Positions 1,047 to 44,325 of a stretch of 64,000 bases of DNA are shown here, one piece after another. This stretch comes from Owenia fusiformis (lineage: Eukaryota; Annelida; Polychaeta; Sabellida; Oweniidae). The position numbers and the translations under genes are program-made. The DNA is taken from positions 10,111,730-10,175,729 of the forward strand of contig CAIIXF020000007.1 of assembly GCA_903813345.2 (NCBI GenBank), given 5' to 3'. Each line of letters begins with the position of its first letter. Position 1 is the first letter of the stretch. A model generated the notes under the pieces. It saw only the letters and a list, made by a program, of their open reading frames with translations, was not told the DNA's origin and did no database searches.

Positions 1047-4000
1047 GGTATTACAGTTAAAGTTGATCAGGGGGAAACTGTCATTTCTCGCATATTGACT
1101 GGAGGTCTGGTTGACCAACAAGGTAGATCATCTACTAACATTTTAATGTTCATATCCATCATGTTCTTCCATTTGGTTCATTATTATGATCATGTCATGT
1201 ACAAGGGGAATTCATTCTTAGAGTAATTGAATGTCATTTTTAACTGGTGAGGAGTTTCAAAGTTTAAAGTCAACTACTGCCTGTTTTTGACTAACCAATA
1301 TCATTTATTTAATTAGATTTACAATTGTAAAGCCATAGAGAGTTTTTATATGTTAACTGATTATTTGAACCAATTACATTAAAGATTTCATTAAAATTAT
1401 CAGTAAAATGATTTAATAGTTTGTTATATACTGTAGTAATGGAAAATAGTTAAGTCTACACTTATTATATGATCAAAAAGATGTTGTCATTTCTGTAATC
1501 TTAAAAAGTGAGAATATCAATGTGAAATGTATTCTAATACATAAATGATGTAAGTTTTGGTTGAGTCGTTAACATTTGCCAAAATTTTCTAGGTTTACTA
1601 CACGTTGGTGACATCATCAAGGAAATTAACGGACAGGAAGTGATCTCTCCCGACCAACTTCAGGACCAGATGCAACGTGCTGTCGGGAGCATTACTTTAA
1701 AAATACTTCCAAGTTATGTGGACCATAATATAGTCTCTCAGGTAAGAGGTCATAAAAAACTAAAAATAATTTAAAAAATTTTAGTGGTATTCATTGATAA
1801 CTAGAATTATTATTCCCCTCGAAAAAATCTTTTATACTTTTACTGTAATGTTTGTGTTTTTCTGCCAGGTTTACATGAAGGCCCATTTCAACTATGACCC
1901 CATGAGGGACAATCTGATCCCATGTAGAGAGGCGGGACTTCCTTTTAGAGATGGAGAGATCCTGCAGATACTCAACATGGATGACAATAACTGGTGGCAG
2001 GTGAGTCATTTTATGATTGGTCGAAGCTAGGTCACATGACATGAATACTCAACATGGATGACAATAACTGGTGGCAGGTGAGTCATATGATTGGTCGAAC
2101 CAAAGTCACATGACATGAATAATCAGGTGGTATTCACATCAAACATGAGACAACCCTGGAACCCTCACTTCAAAAAATTGATTATCCCCAATCCTAATAC
2201 AATAAATGGTTGTACTTAGTATACTATGTAGTTAGTGTCTGATGTAGCCATTAGGTGCAAGGCATCTTGAAAATATTTTGATATGGTAGATATCCCTAAA
2301 AAATAAATGATTTAATCATTATTCATAATGCATTGCCCATATAACAAGCTTGCAATTTCACAAATTCTGAGTTATTTAGTTTTTTTATTAAATCAATCAA
2401 AATGGAGGATTTCAATGATGTTTGACTGTATTTAGGCTCGGATGGTAGACTATCCCTCGACAACAGGTCTCGTTCCTTCCCTTAGACTTGAAGAAAGACG
2501 TAAAGCCTTTGTCAAACCTGAAAATGATTTTACAAAAAACTCTTGTGAGTATGGCTGCAACACAGGATGCATGGAAGCTGATTCAATATTCATATTTTCA
2601 TGTTTATGTTGTTTTATTTTAGGTTTTTGCTTGTTGTTTGTTTTGTTTGTTAGGTGAATGTTGTTGTGTTCTTCCCAGAATTTCTTCTCAACCGCTTGCA
2701 AAAGTCTGCCTATTTTGGGGCCATATATATGGACAGTCTTAGAATTGGGATATTTATCCATATAAATTTTTTTTGAATTCAAACATTCTAGGGCATTTGG
2801 ACGAATCCCCAATGTAAAAATTAAATTGAATATCAGATTGAATTAAATGTGTGTAGAAAAGGGATTTATGCTTGAATTCATCAGTTACGCATCCCCTGTA
2901 TCGCAGGGTTACAGAATCATACACAAACCTTCCTTCTTGAAACAACCTTCTTGGAAGAAGGAAGGAACTTTGTATATGATTCTGTAACCCTGCGATACGG
3001 GCGATGTAGTTACACAATATAATTCCTATGATGCATCATTACTATGGAGACATTTATCCAGATAAAGTGCATCATATGAATTCTCTACTTCTGGAATCAC
3101 AAAATAATGTATGAAAGAATGATCTTCCAAATTCTGACTTAGAAATAGATTCTCTATGAGATTTAAGGGAAATTTTTAATTCAAGTTTGCGTGCACCATT
3201 CATTGAAACAACCTTGTGGAGATCACTGTCTTGCATGTTTGTTAGGCTGAAGAACAATGGACTTGGGGGATGGTTTCCCAAGGTCAGTTTGGTGTCCATT
3301 ATCTGGCCTTCTAATGTTGAATATACATTTTATATTGGGTTTCACAATTATAAAAATTATATGTGGGATGATCATGAACATCAATTTGAATTTGACTTCG
3401 CTGTTATTTCATCTCACAAAATTTAACTAATGACAAACTGTATCTTCAACTTTAGAAGGATCTGGATTATAACTACCTATTGTACCATCATCCTCCAACC
3501 ACAGAGCTACAAGATCCAGAATATCGTCTTTCTCTTTGTCACATGATCACTTTCATTCAGGATAATCCAATATGATTATCACAGGGGAAAGAAGTAGGAA
3601 CAAATTCTATAGCCCTGTGTTCGGAGGATGTTGTACTCTGTATAATATTATAATTTTCTGTTGGTGTTGTGTATTGTGTGGTTAGTTCTGGGGTTATCAA
3701 TAGGTGGCATGATATGTTATAGGCACGCAAGATTGACGGAGATGAAAGTTTTACAGGATTGGTACCATCCATTACCATTGAAGAAAAAAGACGAGCCTTT
3801 GTTAAGCCAGAATATGATTACACCACTAGTTCATGTGTGTATTATTAGCAATTTTTAGTTTTTACATTTTTCTGTTAAAATTCAGTTATTTGACCATTAC
3901 AATATTTTTTGAATTATCGTTGATTTTGCTGTTGTTGTAAGTTGCTTTAAATATTTATTTTACTAACATAATTTTCTATATAATATAAAAGGACTTGTCA

Positions 4001-5967
4001 AGTTAGTAAGTAAACTTTTACAAAAAAACTCCAGGTAATTGCTCCAGTTCAATTAAATATCACTTTAAAGATATTTAATCCAGCAGTCAGTCATCATAAT
4101 GGCACTATATGTTAAACACGAAGTTCCAAAATGTTTATGTTAACATTATTATTTAGATCATATGGTATGTGTGCATTAGTTAAGAATAATTCATTCTTTT
4201 CAGATCTTTGTGGAATTGTAAGGAAGAAAAAGAAGAAAACTATGTACAAATCCAAACAAAGTTCAGGTAAAATCTAAAACCCAAAACATTAATAGAATGA
4301 TTCATATTTTTTAAATGCTTGTGCATCAGTACAATATGTTAAAAGGTTTCATCTTGTACAGAATTTCACAAAAACTAATTCAGGGGGTAATGTGTGCTGA
4401 AAAACCAGTAATAAACACTGAATTTTAAGGTACAGAAATTTTTGTTGTCAATATGGTTCATTATTAAATTAGTTTTGCAGTTGACATATTTTGTTTATTC
4501 TTTGTATTTTGTTAATTTTAGAGTTTGATCGCCATGAGATGATGATATATGAAGAAGTGGCCAGAATGCCTCCATTCCAGAGGAAGACTCTAGTCCTGGT
4601 AGGTGCCCAGGGTGTGGGCAGGCGGACACTCAAGAACAAACTCATTGAAAGTGACCCAAACAGATTTGGCACAACTATGCCACGTAAGTTTTATATAGAC
4701 ATTCCTAATTGATTTTAAAGTATAGATTCTTCTGATGAAATAAACATAAAACAAACTGAAAGTTACCTTTGCTATAAAAGAAAGTATTAGTATTTTTCCA
4801 TACTTTGACATATAAAACAATACACATGTTATCAATACCAAGAACCATATTACAAACACCACTTATGAATATCCCATGTATGCATTTCATATTGTCACAA
4901 TACACATGTTATCAATACCAATGACCATATTACAGACACAACACGTGAGATGCGTGAAGATGAGGAGAATGGTAATGGCTACTGGTTTGTTGATGCTGAA
5001 GAGATGAAGGTTGATATAAGTGAGGGCAAATACCTGGAATACGGAGAGTTTGATGGCAACCTATATGGCACAAAACTTGATACAATTAGACAAGTCATCA
5101 GGAGTGGACGAATGTGTATAATTGACTGCAATCCACAGGTAGGATCATATGGAATTCCGTTTTATAGTTACCCACTTGAAATTACATGGATTATATTTAA
5201 AATTTATTGTGAAACTTTTGAAATAACACCTTAGATGTAGGTTTGGTGACATTTAGTTTCATCATTAGCATTAGCATCAGGATGAGCTATCAAATCTTCT
5301 TGGCTTGAATCCAGATATGATAAATGGGTTCATTGATGGTCAACCCCCATGATTTACTATCACAATTCAAGCCAATTGTAATCCTGCATCCAGCATAAAT
5401 CCTCATCAGATACGAAAGCACCATTGATCGATTATATAATAGATATATAATTTGATTTTAATATAAAGATAATTTTTTCATGGATCTTTTGTATTTTTAG
5501 GCTCTGAAGACATTAAAGACAGGGGAGTTCATGCCATATATAGTGTTCGTTGCAGCCCCTAGTGTTGAAGTGATGTCAAACATGCATGAATTAGCCAAGC
5601 AACAGGGTGTCACGACTATAGACAAAACAGTAAGTGAGACGGTCATAGACCAACAAAATAGAAGTTTATTGTAACATCTTTTTTTAAAACACTTTGATTT
5701 TGCCATGCTAGAAAGATGTTTTTCAAACAAAAATGACATTTCTTAAATCTATTTGTGACATTTTCATGTGTTTTGTACTTTTTTCTTCAGGAGCGTGAAT
5801 TTAGAAATACATTAGATGAAAGTGCTCGAGTTGAACGTGCCTACAAACATTACTTTGACACGACGATTATAAATGACAACATGGGAGAGTGTTTCAACAC
5901 TCTACGTAGAGCAATAGAGACTCTAAGTATGGAACCCCAATGGGTACCTGTCAGCTGGGTCTACTAA
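1047..5967 (+). CDS. MPP2/MPP6-like MAGUK scaffold (PDZ-SH3-guanylate kinase), 3' part of gene
   Basis: Membrane-associated guanylate kinase family scaffold that links membrane proteins to the cortical cytoskeleton at cell junctions. Exons by eye: 1047-1122, 1593-1741, 1869-2000, then 2436-2544 or 3723-3834, 4204-4266, 4522-4683, 4936-5138, 5501-5629, 5791-5967; phases agree throughout. This gives about 400 residues: the second half of a PDZ domain ([17 protein letters not shown]), an SH3 domain (NYDP near its start, NNWWQ at its end), a polybasic HOOK segment (KKKKK), and a guanylate kinase-like domain with EEVARMPPF and [14 protein letters not shown]. The C-terminus [10 protein letters not shown] is the hallmark of the MPP2/MPP6 branch. 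The P-loop-like site reads GAQGVGRR rather than the GxxGxGK of active guanylate kinases, so it is probably a protein-binding pseudo-enzyme, as known for the family. The L27 region lies outside the window. Assignment to MPP2 versus MPP6 is not possible, since invertebrates often have one pre-duplication gene. Confidence 0.93.
1968..2119 (+). repeat. 77-base tandem duplication spanning an SH3 exon donor site
   Basis: The end of the SH3 exon, its GTGAGT donor and about 40 bases of intron (1968-2044) are repeated directly afterwards (2045 to about 2119) with only a few differences. The second copy keeps the coding end (NNWWQ) and the donor. Splicing at the second donor would run the frame into TAG soon after the first donor, so the first donor should be the functional one. 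Confidence 0.9.
2436..2544 (+). CDS. MAGUK alternative exon A (end of SH3 / HOOK)
   Basis: 109 bases between a TTTAG acceptor and a GTGAGT donor, entering in phase 0 and leaving in phase 1. It encodes 36 residues with the core [20 protein letters not shown], which is the last SH3 strand and the start of the HOOK region in MPP proteins. Exon B at 3723-3834 encodes a homologous peptide with the same phases. Including both in one transcript would shift the frame, so only one can be used per productive mRNA. Confidence 0.85.
2882..3013. repeat. Inverted repeat / hairpin between alternative exons A and B
   Basis: Arms of about 55-60 bases (2882-2940 and 2953-3013) share TATCGCAGGGTTACAGAATC and its complement and flank a loop of about a dozen bases. 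It could be a small palindromic transposon relic. It lies in the intron between the two competing exons, where a strong RNA stem could matter for exon choice, though that is inference. Confidence 0.8.
3237..3573 (+). other. Possible cryptic exons between MAGUK exons A and B
   Basis: Two short stretches have splice-like borders. One begins after TTGTTAG at about 3246 and reads [12 protein letters not shown] up to a GTCAGT. The other begins after CAACTTTAG at about 3455 and stays open for 39 codons to a TGA at 3572-3574, with a protein-like start ([14 protein letters not shown]). Neither matches an MPP segment that I recognise. They may be chance or an alternative truncated end. Confidence 0.2.
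3723..3834 (+). CDS. MAGUK alternative exon B, duplicate of exon A
   Basis: 112 bases, phase 0 in and phase 1 out, acceptor TTATAG, donor GTGTGT. It encodes 37 residues with the core [20 protein letters not shown], matching exon A closely except in the 5' third (RKIDGDESF against RMVDYPST) and the end (YDYTTSS against NDFTKNS). The extra codon lies in the variable 5' part, which corresponds to the SH3 loop next to the last strand. Both copies keep open frames and splice sites, so neither looks like a dead duplicate. Confidence 0.82.
4817..4941 (+). repeat. Partial tandem duplication of a splice acceptor region, one copy disabled
   Basis: About 45 bases around the acceptor of the exon starting at 4936 occur twice with an 80-base period. 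The downstream copy carries TTACAG|ACAC, the used acceptor. The upstream copy reads TTACAAACAC, so its AG is lost. The shared block starts ACAATACACATGTTATCAAT in both. Confidence 0.85.
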
Positions 5968-9617: not shown

Positions 9618-12173
9618 ATGGGGATGATAAACGCAACCACAACACCAAGTTTCTTGACAGGTGAGAATATCTTTTTCAGTGTTTTAGACATAGATCACTT
9701 ATATTTTAGACATATTTCATATTTAATAAAATTTTATCTGAAGATTCTGGAATTGTCTTGACAGGTGAGAAGTTTATTGAATTCTTTAAATAAACATATT
9801 CATGAAATTTTGTCTGACGATAAATGTAAAACAGATTATTTTGTAATGGTTTACTTGATAAATGAGAAAAATAGTTCACTATAACCGCTTCCAATGTCTC
9901 TTAAAAAGATAAAGCAAAACTCAGACTTGCCTCAGGCATAAAAATAATAGATCAGTAAATACTCCTTATTTCATTTTTAACATCACTTTTGAAAAATGCA
10001 CATCGTAGAATTCATATACCACGTGTACAGATGAATGACCTTTGTTAGTTAATATGCATCCAAGACAATAATGGGGACAATGATCCCTAGGGGACGGTGA
10101 TTTCTGTCTCACCTGGGTCCCAATTCAGCGTTGCTTTATTTCAGGTTTTCTTAAGTTCAGACATATATTAGTCCATCTTTAATTATCTGTCTCGTAGCTG
10201 GTGAACAAATCCTAATAAGTGGAAAAATCAACTCATTAATGATACATTAAGATGAAAACAATCAATTAGAGGTTTCATTAACACAAATACAAGGTCCCGT
10301 TTAGCTGTAACTGGGCGTATGTTTGGGTTGAGATTTAGGGCTACTTAATTTTTACCATCATTTTACCGAGTACACAAATAATACCGTATGTCTGTGTTAA
10401 ACTGTCTGCTTGTGATTTGGTATTTATATTTCATTCAAACTTATATGATGAGAGGAACATGGTATAGTTTGATTATTTTATTAATTAGATTTCAATATTC
10501 TAAACTAATTATGCAATTATGATTCGGTCATTGTTTCTTTCACTATTGAAGTTACAACAGATGGTACTGTCATTTTCTGCAATCATAACTCTTGATTAAT
10601 TAATTAGTAAATCAAATTAAATTGGTCCATGTTATGAAATGTGACTTGATTTTCAGATGCAGCGACGTTTGGAGGTTATGCAACAAATTCTACAAAACGC
10701 ACAGAGGAGGTATCGGACCATAATGCAACTAATTCAAACTCACATGCTACGCCCAGTTATTCTATTATGAACAGCACAGATACATCTATAAAATCGAGCA
10801 AAACAATCCAGATTGTGGTAACATCAAAACCACTAGCAATTGCCATACCAACCGATGTTGCTTTAGCAACGGGCACTGCTACGCAGACCTCTACAATTGC
10901 ACCTTCTACGACACCTGATGCATCAACAAGAGTCCCATCACCGACAAATGCTACCATACCAAGTCCTGTAACCAAACCAACAACAAACTCCAACCAAACT
11001 CCGGTTGCTATACCAAAGACAGTTTCCCGATCAACCACAAAACAAACCACCACCAGCAATCCAAAACAGGTTATCATGGCAACAACAATTTTCACATCAC
11101 CCATAGCGCATTCCACCACCACTACAACAACGGCTCGTGTACCTGCAATCCCTAACAGGCCTGAACATTATAATGCTCAGCATCATATGGGGCTCACTGT
11201 TGGCCTTACAGCTGGGTTATTGACAACGTTGTTTCTCGGCTCAATGGCAATCACAGTCTTTCTCCTCTGTCGAAGGAGAAAGAACGTTGATCCAACGTAA
11301 GTAAACGTTTGGCTTTTCTTCATCCAACGTAAGTAAACGTTTGGCTTTTCTTCATCCTAGATTAATTCAAATATCTTGCGATATTAGTTTTAGGGTTAAA
11401 GCACTAGACTGATGATAATGAGTGAGTTAATGCATGAGTTGCACTACATGTTACCAAAATTCAAAGTGAAGGTTACACAATGCAACGCGTGAATAGCATC
11501 GGATTTTTATAGCTTTTCTTTTTTCCCACACTGTAAATTGTTTCAAACCATGAGTTAATTATTCGCAAAAGCATACTGCTGCCTGGTGGCATCTTACAAA
11601 GGACCCAAAGCGTTTGATGCAATAGTGGAAATTTTCTTAACATTTTTTGTCTACAGGTTACCTCGTTGCAGAAGAGGACGTGTACAAAGTGGTACAACCC
11701 ATGTTCCACCAACCGTACGTAGCGTTCGAGGAATGTCAGTCTCTTCTCCATTTGCAATGAACGCGTTCTACACACCTGGCTATACAGCTTATCGTTGGCA
11801 AGGTGACGGTCAGTCTCAAGGTCATGTTGAAGGTCAGGGCCAACCTCACGTTCACTTAACAAATATAGTGCCCCCGGCTTACAATACGTTGTCTCCTAGG
11901 TTACCACCGAGAGCTCCACATGGAAATCTATATTCTTCAGACCCTACCATAGGGGGCACTACTGGAGGGGCCACTGGAGGTACTTACCCTACTCCTAATG
12001 CGAGCACATGTCATAGCCCAGTTCTTCCGAGTCATCCTCCACCGAAATATGAAACTCTAGAACACTATAGCCACACGGAATACACTTATCAGAATACTCA
12101 GAATGATGGGATTTATGAAAGCATTGCATCCAGAGGAGGTAATGCTAGACCATCAGCTTCAGGTGGCATCTGA
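9618..12173 (+). CDS. Single-pass Thr/Ser-rich membrane protein with two cytoplasmic PPxY motifs
   Basis: Three exons (9618-9660, 10657-11296, 11657-12173) join in phase to about 399 residues. The ATG at 9618 has a good context (CACCATGG). Residues 1-190 are rich in Thr, Ser, Pro and Asn with several N-x-S/T sites, like a mucin-type O-glycosylated ectodomain. One hydrophobic segment lies at about 192-219 (GLTVGLTAGLLTTLFLGSMA and on), followed by the stop-transfer cluster RRRK. The tail of about 180 residues has PPAY and PPKY motifs, expected ligands for WW domains such as those of NEDD4-type ubiquitin ligases or YAP, and several Tyr residues near the end. No cleavable signal peptide is visible: either it inserts as a reverse signal-anchor protein or an upstream exon is missed. 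I do not recognise an orthologue, and the function is unknown. Confidence 0.72.
11291..11354 (+). repeat. 32-base perfect tandem duplication on an exon 2 donor site
   Basis: The last coding bases TCCAAC, the donor GTAAGT and 20 further intron bases (11291-11322) are repeated exactly at 11323-11354. Both copies retain a full donor. Use of the second donor would read ACG TAA, an immediate stop after the transmembrane segment, giving a receptor without its PPxY tail. Confidence 0.95.
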
Positions 12174-27324: not shown

Positions 27325-29058
27325 TTATTCTTGATATGACCACGACCTTGATATGACAAAGTGAAAAACGTCAAGAATTTCTGGTGGTCGTTTGGCGCGG
27401 AGAGTCGGAATAATTTTAAACCAAATGTTTCCGTCCTCTGCAGAAACATCACGATCATATCTGTACTGAGTTTCCGTACGCTTTATTTCTCGGTCAGATG
27501 CTCTGCATATATATATAATTAATTTCCGCAAAGATATAGCCACTAGGTGTGCGTACACGACCCCAATGCACCATTTGTCTCTCCCTAAAACATCTTTGCT
27601 AGGATTGAAAGGCATGGCTGCGGCGACGTTTATCGGTGGTCCGTAAACACTGGTGAGGTTCTTTATCCCGCAGTTGAACAAGGAAAACATGCGATACAGA
27701 TAATACCTCGTATCTGGTTGATAAGGTAGACGGTCCTGAACGACACGCCAAAGCCCTTTTAGATGATCCAATTTACTTGCATCCGATTCGACGGCTTGGG
27801 TAACCTTTGCAACTTCTTCACGAACGCTATCAATGTTTATCGCAGTTATCTGTCTAGTTGCCGGAATTGAAAACCAGTTTGGTTCGTCAAGAAATGTAGG
27901 ATGGAAGTCTGGTAAATGATCGTTACCATCATACAGCTTAGTTGCACAATCCCGATAGAAATCTTGCAAAAGAAACCACAAGTCAGGTTTTTCATAGTTC
28001 TCTATTTTAGAGAAGTACGACCCCGCACAAATTTGGACCAAGAACTTTAATCCTCCATCTTTCTGAAGAATGTCGAGAAGATAGAGGCGTTCGATTTCTC
28101 CAACGATATCGACAATACAATCCGCGTCTATTTCCCCAGCTTTGGCTTGAGAATTGCATGTGCTGTCATGGTGATATACGATAGTCTTCACCACGTATGA
28201 ACTGCAGATGGAGTAGTCAAATCCCGTGCTTGATTTGAATATGCTGATGATCGCTTTCAATATAGTTAATATCTTCTTGTGACTCTCCTTCATTTTGGAC
28301 AGTCTCTGTTTCTCCTGTTGACTAAACGACATCGCCCATTCTTGAGGTTGTCCTTCGGGACCTTTAGGCACTATGATACATTTGCCATAATCGGGATCAA
28401 CCTTAGGGACACCATCTATTGCTTTGTAATCAGTCTCCAATCCAAATGTAACATCCGTATCTCTGCCTATATTTCTGGTCACAGTCATTGTAGCACAAGG
28501 AGCACTACTCTGCTCATGCAGAAAAATACTAGCCTTCCCGGGTTCTTCCAGCAAATGGTGTCCATCATTCTTAAGCTTTTCCAATGCGTCGCCAACTATT
28601 CTATGAAATAGAAATCGCGCGTCATTAAGAAAGAAGAACTCTTCCGTGATTACCGAAAGGTTATACTTTTTCGAGGCTTCTTGAAAGTAGTTTCTCAGAT
28701 TAACGTCCTTCACAACAATTTGACAGGATTTAGAGCTAAGTCCTTTTATGAATCCTAAGGAAGATGGTGGAATGTCTAAAAGTCCCATAAAATCGAAATC
28801 GCTAATCTGTCCAGTCGTGGTTCCATCATATGTACTTCCCGTAGTAAGTCTTTTGCGAATGGTAAATGGATTATCATCGGAGTCGTTGATCTCTTTGAAA
28901 ATTGCATCGATTAGCTGTTCAGTTTCATGTGTTATATCAGCAAGGTCATCAATTACATCTTTCTCTTTTACGTGATCATATAATTCCCGAAAGAAGCACA
29001 CTAGTTTTTCCTTTTCAATTTCGTTAAAATGTTCGTTAGTTTCAGGAGATCCCGCCAT
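27325..29058 (-). CDS. Mab-21 / cGAS-like nucleotidyltransferase (cGLR candidate), intronless
   Basis: A single 577-residue open frame with no introns, starting at an ATG in good context (AAATGGCGG). The N-terminal 60 residues look helical. The nucleotidyltransferase signature follows: GS at 74-75 in TTGSTYDGT, the metal-binding pair D87 and D89 in SDFDFMG, and a third acidic residue D202 in DTDVTFGLE. Residues about 234-290 carry the Mab-21 family block (SFSQQEKQRL, HKKILTILKAI, SSYVVKTIVYHH). Having all three acidic residues separates it from catalytically dead Mab-21 proteins and groups it with cGAS-like receptors, which make cyclic dinucleotides on sensing nucleic acid and signal through STING (family knowledge). 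The C-terminal 170 residues resemble no domain that I can name. The zinc ribbon of vertebrate cGAS is not evident. Lack of introns among intron-rich neighbours suggests an ancient retrocopy or an expanded family. Ligand and product cannot be read from sequence. Confidence 0.85.
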   Translation of the reverse strand: MAGSPETNEHFNEIEKEKLVCFFRELYDHVKEKDVIDDLADITHETEQLIDAIFKEINDSDDNPFTIRKRLTTGSTYDGTTTGQISDFDFMGLLDIPPSSLGFIKGLSSKSCQIVVKDVNLRNYFQEASKKYNLSVITEEFFFLNDARFLFHRIVGDALEKLKNDGHHLLEEPGKASIFLHEQSSAPCATMTVTRNIGRDTDVTFGLETDYKAIDGVPKVDPDYGKCIIVPKGPEGQPQEWAMSFSQQEKQRLSKMKESHKKILTILKAIISIFKSSTGFDYSICSSYVVKTIVYHHDSTCNSQAKAGEIDADCIVDIVGEIERLYLLDILQKDGGLKFLVQICAGSYFSKIENYEKPDLWFLLQDFYRDCATKLYDGNDHLPDFHPTFLDEPNWFSIPATRQITAINIDSVREEVAKVTQAVESDASKLDHLKGLWRVVQDRLPYQPDTRYYLYRMFSLFNCGIKNLTSVYGPPINVAAAMPFNPSKDVLGRDKWCIGVVYAHLVAISLRKLIIYICRASDREIKRTETQYRYDRDVSAEDGNIWFKIIPTLRAKRPPEILDVFHFVISRSWSYQE

Positions 29059-29329
29059 TTCTAGATCAGCTACGTGTGTTTCAATCCTTCAAGTCGCTCA
29101 AAATAGCGAGATTACGTATCGTTCAATAACCATATGTTTTATTCCAATATATTTAGCGTTTGATTTATGGCCGTGTTAAGATTTTAAGACGAACACTTGT
29201 GGGCAATGTTGTTATCTTACATATAAAAAAATGGATTTATTGACAAGCTGAGTATTGAGTATATTTAAAAAATCTACTCGAGATGATCAGACCGATTTAC
29301 TGAGTTCAAAGTCAAAACTATCAAATATT

Positions 29330-42371: not shown

Positions 42372-44325
42372 TCATTTTGATTTGGACGTATTATTTTCAG
42401 ACTGCAATAGTTTCTCATAAGTTTTTAGCTGATGTTGAAATCCTGCATTAGGCCTGATACAAGGCCTTACACCTGCTACTTTACTATGAGCTTCTTGTAA
42501 AGTCATTCTCTCAGTTCTCATTATATACGCGATCACAATAGTAGCTGACCTAGATACCCCTGCATTACAATGTACTAGCACTCTGCCTTTACTCCCTAAT
42601 GCTTCATCTATGAATTTAAAACACTCAGGAAAATGCTTCGATATGTCAGACTCGGGTATGTCAAGTATCTCTATTTTGAGGTATTTGAAGTCATCTGGGA
42701 ACCAGTTCTCTATCATGGATGCTACATTGAGGATATGTGTGATGTCATGCTGCTCTAAGATGTCAACATCAGCCGCTACATCCTGGGAGCCTGCAAATAT
42801 ACTGTACATGTATACAGTGAATCCTCGTATATATCACCTAACAAAATTAGTACAGTGAAACCTGTCTAAGTGGAACACCTGTTGTACCTCTAAAATATTT
42901 TCCACTTGGGGGGTGTTTTACTTATATAGAGGTTCATTTAACATTAAATCTGTTGGTCTTGGGACTCTGAAATATGTTTCAGTTCTAGAGGTGTTCTACT
43001 TTACAGGTTTCACTGTAGTTCTGATTATTGTGGTTTAAAATTAAGCTTGGCAATTCTATCTGTTTTTACATTAATGATTGTTTAGAATAAGCTCAGAAAT
43101 TGAAAATAAAGATTTTTGTTAAGTTTTGATGCTAATAGGACCTCTACTATTTTTCTCAGCCACTTAAATACATGTAGGAGTTGGATTGTGATGGGAATAT
43201 CTGTTATTATTATATACCCAATATGTAACACTAATCCTGATTGGTCAATACCTAGTCACGTGTTCCGAAATAGATTTACTATTTCCCTCGGAAAGTTATA
43301 TTCCCTCAAATGTGATGTCAGCGGGAATATACATTTGAACTATTGCCCGCTGACGTCATGATTGCAACTTCTATTACCCTTGGAAACGTCTGCGCATCAT
43401 CACTGCGCAGACGAAAAACAGAAAAATGGAGGATGAGCACAAACACAAATCAACTCCGTTCACCATGACAGACGTGCGTGAACGATACAGTATAAGCAAC
43501 GTGTATAAAGTTCCCTAAGCTAAATACGTCTGTGTAATTTCAAGTGTTATGATAATCTATTCCGCGTGTTAAACGCGATTGAATTTGTCAAGTGAGAGTC
43601 TCAGAGGCAAAAATTTCTGTTGAGCATCTGATGACGTCACAGCTTATAATGCTAACAATGGACCCGGGGAGGGGGCTTTCTAAGCCTTTTTGGCCTTCTC
43701 AGAGGAAACGGGACAAGAGTCAGTATAGGGTATATAATAAAACAAATAGTGACTGCCTAATTTCGAGCAATAGTGTAAATGATTTCCCCTTGGGAATATC
43801 CTCTACAATGTACTATTCCCTCAGCCTGCGGCTTCGGGAATAGTACATTGTAGAGGATATTCCCAAGGGGAAATAATTTACACTATTGCCCTCAATGGCA
43901 GTCACTATTTGTATACTCATGTATGAACAGAAATGTCCCAGTGTTACATTTAAGCTACATAATTTCATAATTATGACAAATTCATAGATTAAGATTACAA
44001 CTGATGATCTAGAGTAAATCTAATGTACTGCAGAACATTTCTAAAATCATATTATTGTAACCATTTCTTAGATTATAGGGAGGACGACAGTTCAAATGTA
44101 TAAGAACTTACTCAGATATAATCCAGGTAAGACCTCAGCAATTTGCAAGTCAAGTTTAGTGTCCCCAACAAATCCTTGTGCCCCCTGGGATACCATTTCA
44201 GATTTAATTCTGCCATATTTATCTCTAGATTCCTCCAGTGTTCGCCCATCTACTGTTGTCACTGTCGTAACTGTGGATTTTAACTGTTGTGGTTTAAAAC
44301 CTTGGATCTGATTCAGAAAGCTCAT
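42372..44325 (-). CDS. DUSP19: Dual-specificity phosphatase, DUSP19 (SKRP1)-like
   Basis: Two exons on the minus strand, 44325-44112 and 42790-42372, joined in phase 1, give 210 residues, near the length of vertebrate DUSP19. The N-terminus MSFLNQIQGFKPQQL followed by VTTVDGRTLEES matches the DUSP19-specific leader. The phosphatase domain runs from about residue 60 to 205. The active site is HCNAGVSRSA with nucleophile Cys146 and Arg152, and the general acid is Asp115 in ILDIPE, 31 residues before the Cys as is usual. All catalytic residues are intact. DUSP19 acts on or scaffolds JNK-pathway kinases (family knowledge). The start is the first ATG after an upstream in-frame non-ATG stretch. The single intron holds transposon relics. 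Confidence 0.9.
42851..43018. mobile_element. Short TA-flanked MITE with CAGTGAAACCTGT termini
   Basis: The left end TACAGTGAAACCTGTCTAAG and right end ACAGGTTTCACTGTA are inverted, each bordered by TA. It is 168 bases and lies in the DUSP19-like intron. Relatives occur at 49882 and 63518. The TA target and small size point to a Tc1/mariner/pogo-type enzyme. Confidence 0.88.
43735..43915. repeat. Long palindrome (about 75-base arms) in the DUSP19-like intron
   Basis: TTCCCCTTGGGAATATCCTC followed by TACAATGTACTATTCCC is mirrored after a short GC-rich loop (CTCAGCCTGCGGCTTC) by GGGAATAGTACATTGTAGAG and so on. One arm continues into AATTTCGAGCAATAGTGTAA and GACAAGAGTCAGT to its left. A homologous single arm without the palindrome lies at 48079-48215. 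Confidence 0.88.

Follow-up and report, generated by a model that had tools for sequence, protein, structure and literature searches.

Near one end of a 64,000-nt stretch of the Owenia fusiformis genome (contig CAIIXF020000007.1, positions 10,111,730 to 10,175,729 of the forward strand; the whole stretch is called the window here and has a GC content of 35%), a gene for an MPP-type MAGUK carries two similar exons in succession where its SH3 domain passes into the HOOK region. A sequence-only reading of this DNA had taken them for a mutually exclusive pair. Are both exons maintained as alternatives, what would restrict each transcript to one of them, and what would the exchange alter in the protein?

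We rebuilt the gene from reading frame and splice borders and recovered most of an MPP-type MAGUK on the forward strand, from 1047 to 5967. The 5′ end of the gene, including the L27 end, lies beyond the window, and the model consists of 10 exons from the PDZ domain onward (Table 1). The order PDZ-SH3-HOOK-GK is present with a basic HOOK exon, and the spliced product scores above the Pfam cut-offs for PDZ, SH3_1, SH3_2, and Guanylate_kin with either exon A or exon B. Among the PDZ-only PDB chains in the best 60 of 67 matches, MPP2 comes out on top (6.4e-17), with lower matches to CASK (2.4e-12), MPP1 (3.3e-11), MPP7 (3e-9), and MPP5 (4.9e-7). The PDZ domain is therefore nearest to MPP2 among these chains, and the gene is likely to encode an MPP2/6 (Varicose)-like MAGUK; an MPP2/6 SH3-GK chain does not occur among the same best 60 of 67 matches.

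Table 1. Exons of the rebuilt MAGUK gene and candidate regulatory motifs in the intron that separates A from B (window coordinates)
Feature	Coordinates	Strand	Basis
PDZ (part), presumed constant exon	1047..1122	+	open frame, AG/GT borders, PF00595 match
PDZ end and PDZ-SH3 linker, presumed constant exon	1593..1741	+	frame, borders, Pfam
SH3 to ...NNWWQ, presumed constant exon, phase 0 out, adjoins pair upstream	1869..2000	+	frame, borders, Pfam
Alternative exon A, 36 residues, phase 0 to 1	2436..2544	+	borders, frame, tblastn
TGCATG, RBFOX-type motif, from intron base 24 after A	2568..2573	+	motif match only, post hoc
GU-rich CELF-like stretch, 42-69 nt upstream of B	3654..3681	+	26/28 bases G or T
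GCATG, RBFOX core motif, 11 nt short of exon B	3707..3711	+	motif match only, post hoc
Alternative exon B, 37 residues, phase 0 to 1	3723..3834	+	borders, frame, tblastn
HOOK exon with KKKKK cluster, presumed constant, 63 nt, phase 1 to 1	4204..4266	+	frame, borders
HOOK end and GK start, presumed constant exon	4522..4683	+	frame, borders, Pfam
GK, presumed constant exon	4936..5138	+	frame, borders, Pfam
GK, presumed constant exon	5501..5629	+	frame, borders, Pfam
Last coding exon: GK end, C-terminus, stop codon	5791..5967	+	frame, borders, Pfam

Some features of the gene lie outside the pair. The lysine-rich HOOK exon at 4204-4266 is 63 nt long with phase 1 at either end, so that its omission would preserve the frame. 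Local duplications sit on two further splice regions. A tandem repeat of ∼80 nt (1968-2051/2045-2125, 92% identical) covers the donor of exon 1869-2000 together with the exon's 3′ end and provides a second, equal donor after 2077; splicing from it would lengthen the exon by 77 nt that carry an in-frame stop. The acceptor region of exon 4936-5138 is preceded by a near-copy of 46 nt (91%; 4817-4862 versus 4897-4942), in which AA stands in place of the acceptor AG. Two of the four local duplications in the window fall on splice sites of this gene, a count obtained with cut-offs (35 nt, 88%, within 200 nt) chosen after seeing the case; other tandem-repeat settings give 30 rows.

Exons A and B measure 109 and 112 nt, are bordered by AG and GT, and are both entered in phase 0 and left in phase 1, just as the sequence-only reading had placed and described them. 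With A or B alone, the frame stays open across the GK domain as far as the stop codon at 5967. Including both leads to a stop after CTQD, within exon B, and skipping both leads to a stop after IFVEL, within exon 4204-4266, so that the frame break predicted for either error does occur, and early each time. The homology that had been claimed is equally well borne out: 22 of the 36 aligned residues are identical, the alignment has a BLOSUM62 score of 114 where the best of 5000 shuffles reaches 29, and in tblastn searches of the window the two exons find each other with E values of 3.5e-10 and 4.1e-10. A third copy was not found in the window by tblastn, the next matches of A and B having E values of 4.9 and 1.5. 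Exon B has one more codon in its loop than A. The core said to be common to both is indeed conserved, but it contains three variable residues rather than four and its middle Arg is invariant, giving TGLVPS-xxx-EE(R/K)R(K/R)AFVKPE.

The pair shows features of tandem-duplicated mutually exclusive exons, namely, similar length, splice-site type, phase, and homology. Length, phase, splice sites, and homology are also the criteria set out in the available text of PMC3228551, which the features of A and B match. On the Drosophila X chromosome, that text reports non-exclusive exons with such features in 6 of 1705 genes, though only 26 of 65 predicted internal exons had already been annotated as exclusive.

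The differences between the exons have the pattern of coding sequence under constraint. Nucleotide changes number 11, 10, and 20 at codon positions 1, 2, and 3, and different codons are used for 13 of the 22 identical residues. The NG86 estimates are 0.34 for dN and 2.6 for dS, dS being saturated and the ratio rough. Neither exon contains a stop. We simulated neutral drift from A or from B to equal divergence (41 differences in 108 positions; 4000 runs each), and none of the runs from either start kept 22 identical residues, the maxima being 19 and 20. A stop was gained in 79% of the runs from A and 86% of those from B, and at least 20 third-position changes arose in 0.4% and 0.6%, respectively. 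Given the third-position excess, the absence of stops, and the failure of neutral drift, both exons therefore look maintained as coding sequence. We infer that the pair arose by an old duplication. At E 1e-3 the introns flanking the pair show no mutual similarity; a weak ungapped match of 41 nt (76%) that links the intron following A to the one following B (2739-2779/3875-3915) is not in exon register. The viral and genome contig collections, which are non-animal, yielded no relatives among 6 and 20 pattern matches.

How, then, would one exon be chosen and the other left out? Steric exclusion was rejected, being unlikely because the intervening intron is 1178 nt long, and incompatibility through the minor spliceosome appears unlikely by eye, as the donors GTGAGT and GTGTGT have a major-type GT look and are unlike the minor-type consensus. 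The U1 pairing energy is −5.7 for the donor of A and −1.3 for that of B, with the seven other donors between −5.3 and −11.8, and pyrimidines make up 11 of 20 acceptor positions in A and 8 of 20 in B, the lowest among ten acceptors. On these simple measures, which involve no trained splice model, exon B is poorly defined, with the weakest donor and acceptor values among the modelled exons. Exon A, having the better values, would be the default and exon B the regulated form; regulated recognition of the weakly defined exon B would set the choice, and the wrong products, containing both exons or neither, would break the frame and be exposed to NMD. Exclusivity most likely rests on this combination of frame, NMD, and regulated use of the weak exon B.

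Judged by frame, borders, and homology, A and B are alternative exons, and most likely mutually exclusive ones. The exclusive reading fits the phase lock, the homology, the constraint, and the AG/GT sites, but the phase lock alone is no proof of it, because transcripts combining two or more HOOK exons have been detected for zebrafish CACNB2 despite the frame break (PMC2365960). Taken as a whole, an exclusive choice between A and B through frame, NMD, and regulated recognition, exchanging an SH3 loop and the early HOOK, is the best explanation of the locus, and we regard it as quite probable.

The weak splice sites of exon B, which rank last among the modelled exons in donor pairing and in acceptor pyrimidines, could also be those of a decaying or near-silent duplicate that leaves A effectively constitutive. 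Yet B is free of stops and retains the frame and the core motif, and neutral drift did not reproduce the pattern of differences between A and B. Moreover, the Pfam SH3_2 score is 33.3 bits for the B isoform against 27.8 for the A isoform, and the B isoform is ahead in three of the four distinct solved MAGUKs compared (MPP5, 60.3 versus 56.1; fly Dlg, 55.0 versus 49.9; DLG1, 47.2 versus 42.1), the exception being PSD-95, in all four chains of which the A isoform leads (for example, 33.0 for B versus 34.1 for A in 1kjw). Decay of B seems improbable to us on this evidence.

The frame breaks invite a different reading, in which the pair serves as a valve on expression: frequent double inclusion or double skipping would send transcripts to NMD, and the existence of two protein forms would be incidental. 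Both wrong products stop early, with four or five introns downstream in the gene model, and the exon just upstream has the duplicated donor whose use leads to an in-frame stop. Such a valve, however, would presumably not need two constrained coding exons, one poison exon being enough, and we consider it a decidedly unlikely account of the pair. Competing RNA structures of the docking/selector type, which operate in insect clusters including Dscam (PMC6071210), seem very improbable to us as the basis of exclusivity here. In a comparison of best ungapped complementarity, a weak test with one sequence and one simple score, none of the seven pairings between different introns rose above dinucleotide shuffles (33 to 69 of 100 as good), and the strong hairpin at 2890-3006 pairs with itself. 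Pairing within the middle intron was equalled by 6 of 100 dinucleotide shuffles. The hairpin, which lies in the intron between A and B, has 49-nt arms with 84% complementarity (∼−77 kcal/mol for 2880-3015), a single copy in the window at E 1e-3, and no visible role; it is perhaps a mobile-element relic.

If an exclusive choice is set by regulated recognition of exon B, the intron between the exons contains candidate sites for the regulators (Table 1), together with a third GCATG copy in mid-intron at 3232. GCATG is found within 50 nt on the intron side of two of the four splice sites of A and B and of none of the 15 other sites of the gene. Copies in both outer 35-nt ends occur in 0.12% of 5000 shuffles of the intron, a placement tested after being seen and after twelve motif patterns had been counted, and at least three copies occur in 9.7% (P 0.097), which is not rare. 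The pattern TTTGTT or TGTTTG, with 7 occurrences versus 1.9 expected, is enriched as much as GCATG. The GU level of 3654-3681 is attained at 0.06% of window positions, and the donor of B, GTGTGT, continues the GU pattern; GU-type hexamers lie near 3 of the 15 other splice sites too. Control of A and B by RBFOX and CELF is a post hoc hypothesis, an unproven model suggested by the resemblance to worm unc-32. With lower confidence than for the frame and NMD, binding of an RBFOX-family protein to the UGCAUG that follows A and the GCAUG that precedes B would promote the use of A and repress B, by analogy with two C. elegans precedents, and a CELF-type protein bound to the GU-rich stretch ahead of B would tune the use of B. 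In unc-32, selection between exclusive exons depends on RBFOX proteins acting through UGCAUG and on the CELF protein UNC-75 acting through UUGUUGUGUUGU, and egl-15 exon 5B is repressed by RBFOX at UGCAUG upstream, as described in PMC3585155.

In the protein, the pair begins after ...NNWWQ. Aligned to solved MAGUKs, the first part of the exon corresponds to the SH3 loop before GLVPS, which we take to be the so-called distal loop, and the rest, for some solved MAGUK chains, to the HOOK start. Pfam SH3 matches stop at GLVPS, and both isoforms pass the SH3 cut-offs. In MAGUKs other than the MAGUK-type calcium-channel beta subunits (Cav-beta), too, the HOOK presumably splits off the fifth SH3 strand. 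The HOOK start assigned to the pair in the sequence-only reading stands, but the last SH3 strand has to give way to the SH3 loop after ...WWQA and the GLVPS strand, since in Cav-beta, according to PMC3972191, the HOOK sits between the fifth SH3 strand and the other strands. The loop reads MVDYPST in A and KIDGDESF in B, and the early HOOK segment reads ENDFTKNS in A and EYDYTTSS in B, the EYDY segment being present in form B only. The swap would keep both SH3 and HOOK while altering the loop and the early HOOK segment.

A switch of partner binding or of calmodulin/HOOK regulation, which had been suggested for the pair, now looks weaker, and tuning of packing likelier. The lysine cluster belongs to exon 4204-4266, outside the pair, A and B have the basic EE(R/K)R(K/R)AFVKPE stretch in common, and for these reasons a 4.1 partner switch is less likely. 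In MPP1, the lysine cluster that is the counterpart of the one in exon 4204-4266 binds 4.1 (PMC7662862), and by analogy the KKKKK cluster here probably does the same. The swap would probably tune SH3-HOOK-GK packing and tyrosine phosphorylation rather than turn 4.1 binding on or off, the candidate target of phosphorylation being the EYDY segment. HOOK changes matter in this subfamily, because a HOOK Arg-to-Cys substitution is a strong varicose allele; a HOOK stop is a null allele (PMC2414870). The HOOK of Dlg contributes to repression of the GK domain by a mechanism called poorly understood in PMC4252473. The most elaborate version of our reading, a tissue-controlled RBFOX/CELF-type switch in the MPP2/6 lineage between two differently tuned cores, with a phosphorylatable EYDY in B only, is possible though doubtful.

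The remainder of the window contains several unrelated features. A perfect 32-nt tandem duplication at 11290-11357 includes a possible donor (AACGTAAGT) where a Thr/Ser-rich open frame, which contains a membrane-like segment, ends. On the reverse strand, a reverse-transcriptase frame at 57262-58218 matches only the later part of Pfam RVT_1 and is perhaps a truncated retroelement, and 42372-42833 encodes a dual-specificity phosphatase catalytic domain (Pfam DSPc). A single open frame of 587 residues on the same strand, at 27325-29088, has no Pfam match; its GSTYDGTTTGQISDFDFMG stretch is reminiscent of Mab-21/cGAS-like nucleotidyltransferases.

The view that no exclusive pair had been described at this position may hold for MPP genes but does not hold for SH3-HOOK-GK proteins as a whole, exclusive HOOK exons being known in Cav-beta. 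Among the open-access literature matches listed, there is no mutually exclusive pair in an MPP gene, an absence that is provisional, and four core peptide strings of the pair had no match in a full-text literature search. The main text of the human survey PMC5740500 does not mention MPP2 or MPP6, a weak silence given that CACNB is unnamed there too, and that of the human survey PMC9741552 does not mention MPP genes. The available portions of PMC1978500, PMC4764564, and PMC5703972 contain nothing on alternative exons of MPP genes, and the portion of PMC2414870 at hand describes no alternative pair at the SH3/HOOK position of varicose. With natural matched modules that differ only in an SH3 loop and the early HOOK, the function of this segment at junctions or synapses could be studied cleanly.

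Several known systems share part of this arrangement. Drosophila varicose is the fly member of the MPP2/MPP6 subgroup, but the two isoforms described for it differ by their L27 domains (PMC2414870). Splicing also modifies the HOOK of the canonical MAGUKs CASK, where exon 23L lies at its start (PMC8208546), and Dlg, where the I3 insert binds Dishevelled and 4.1 (PMC4252473); the former is an alternative donor and the latter a spliced insert, and neither is described there as an exchange of duplicated exons. The exclusive exons 7a and 7b of unc-32 resemble the present pair in the kind of motif nearby, RBFOX and CELF proteins binding UGCAUG in intron 7b and UUGUUGUGUUGU in 7a, respectively (PMC3585155), but they belong to a V-ATPase subunit and are backed by genetics and binding assays, whereas here there are motifs only, at other positions. 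The closest parallel is Cav-beta (CACNB), an SH3-HOOK-GK protein with mutually exclusive HOOK exons 7a/7b/7c in which skipping of the HOOK exon breaks the frame (PMC3972191), as does joint inclusion of HOOK exons 8 and 9 in the zebrafish gene CACNB2 (PMC2365960). Exon 7 of Cav-beta, however, lies within the HOOK, gives forms of different length (7a long, 7b short), and belongs to another gene family, whereas the exons described here are homologous and almost equal in length, take in an SH3 loop and strand as well, and belong to an MPP-type MAGUK. Exclusive HOOK exons are thus already known from Cav-beta, and what is provisionally new is such a pair in an MPP-type gene, which, if true, would extend control by HOOK exon swapping from Cav-beta to the MPP scaffolds.
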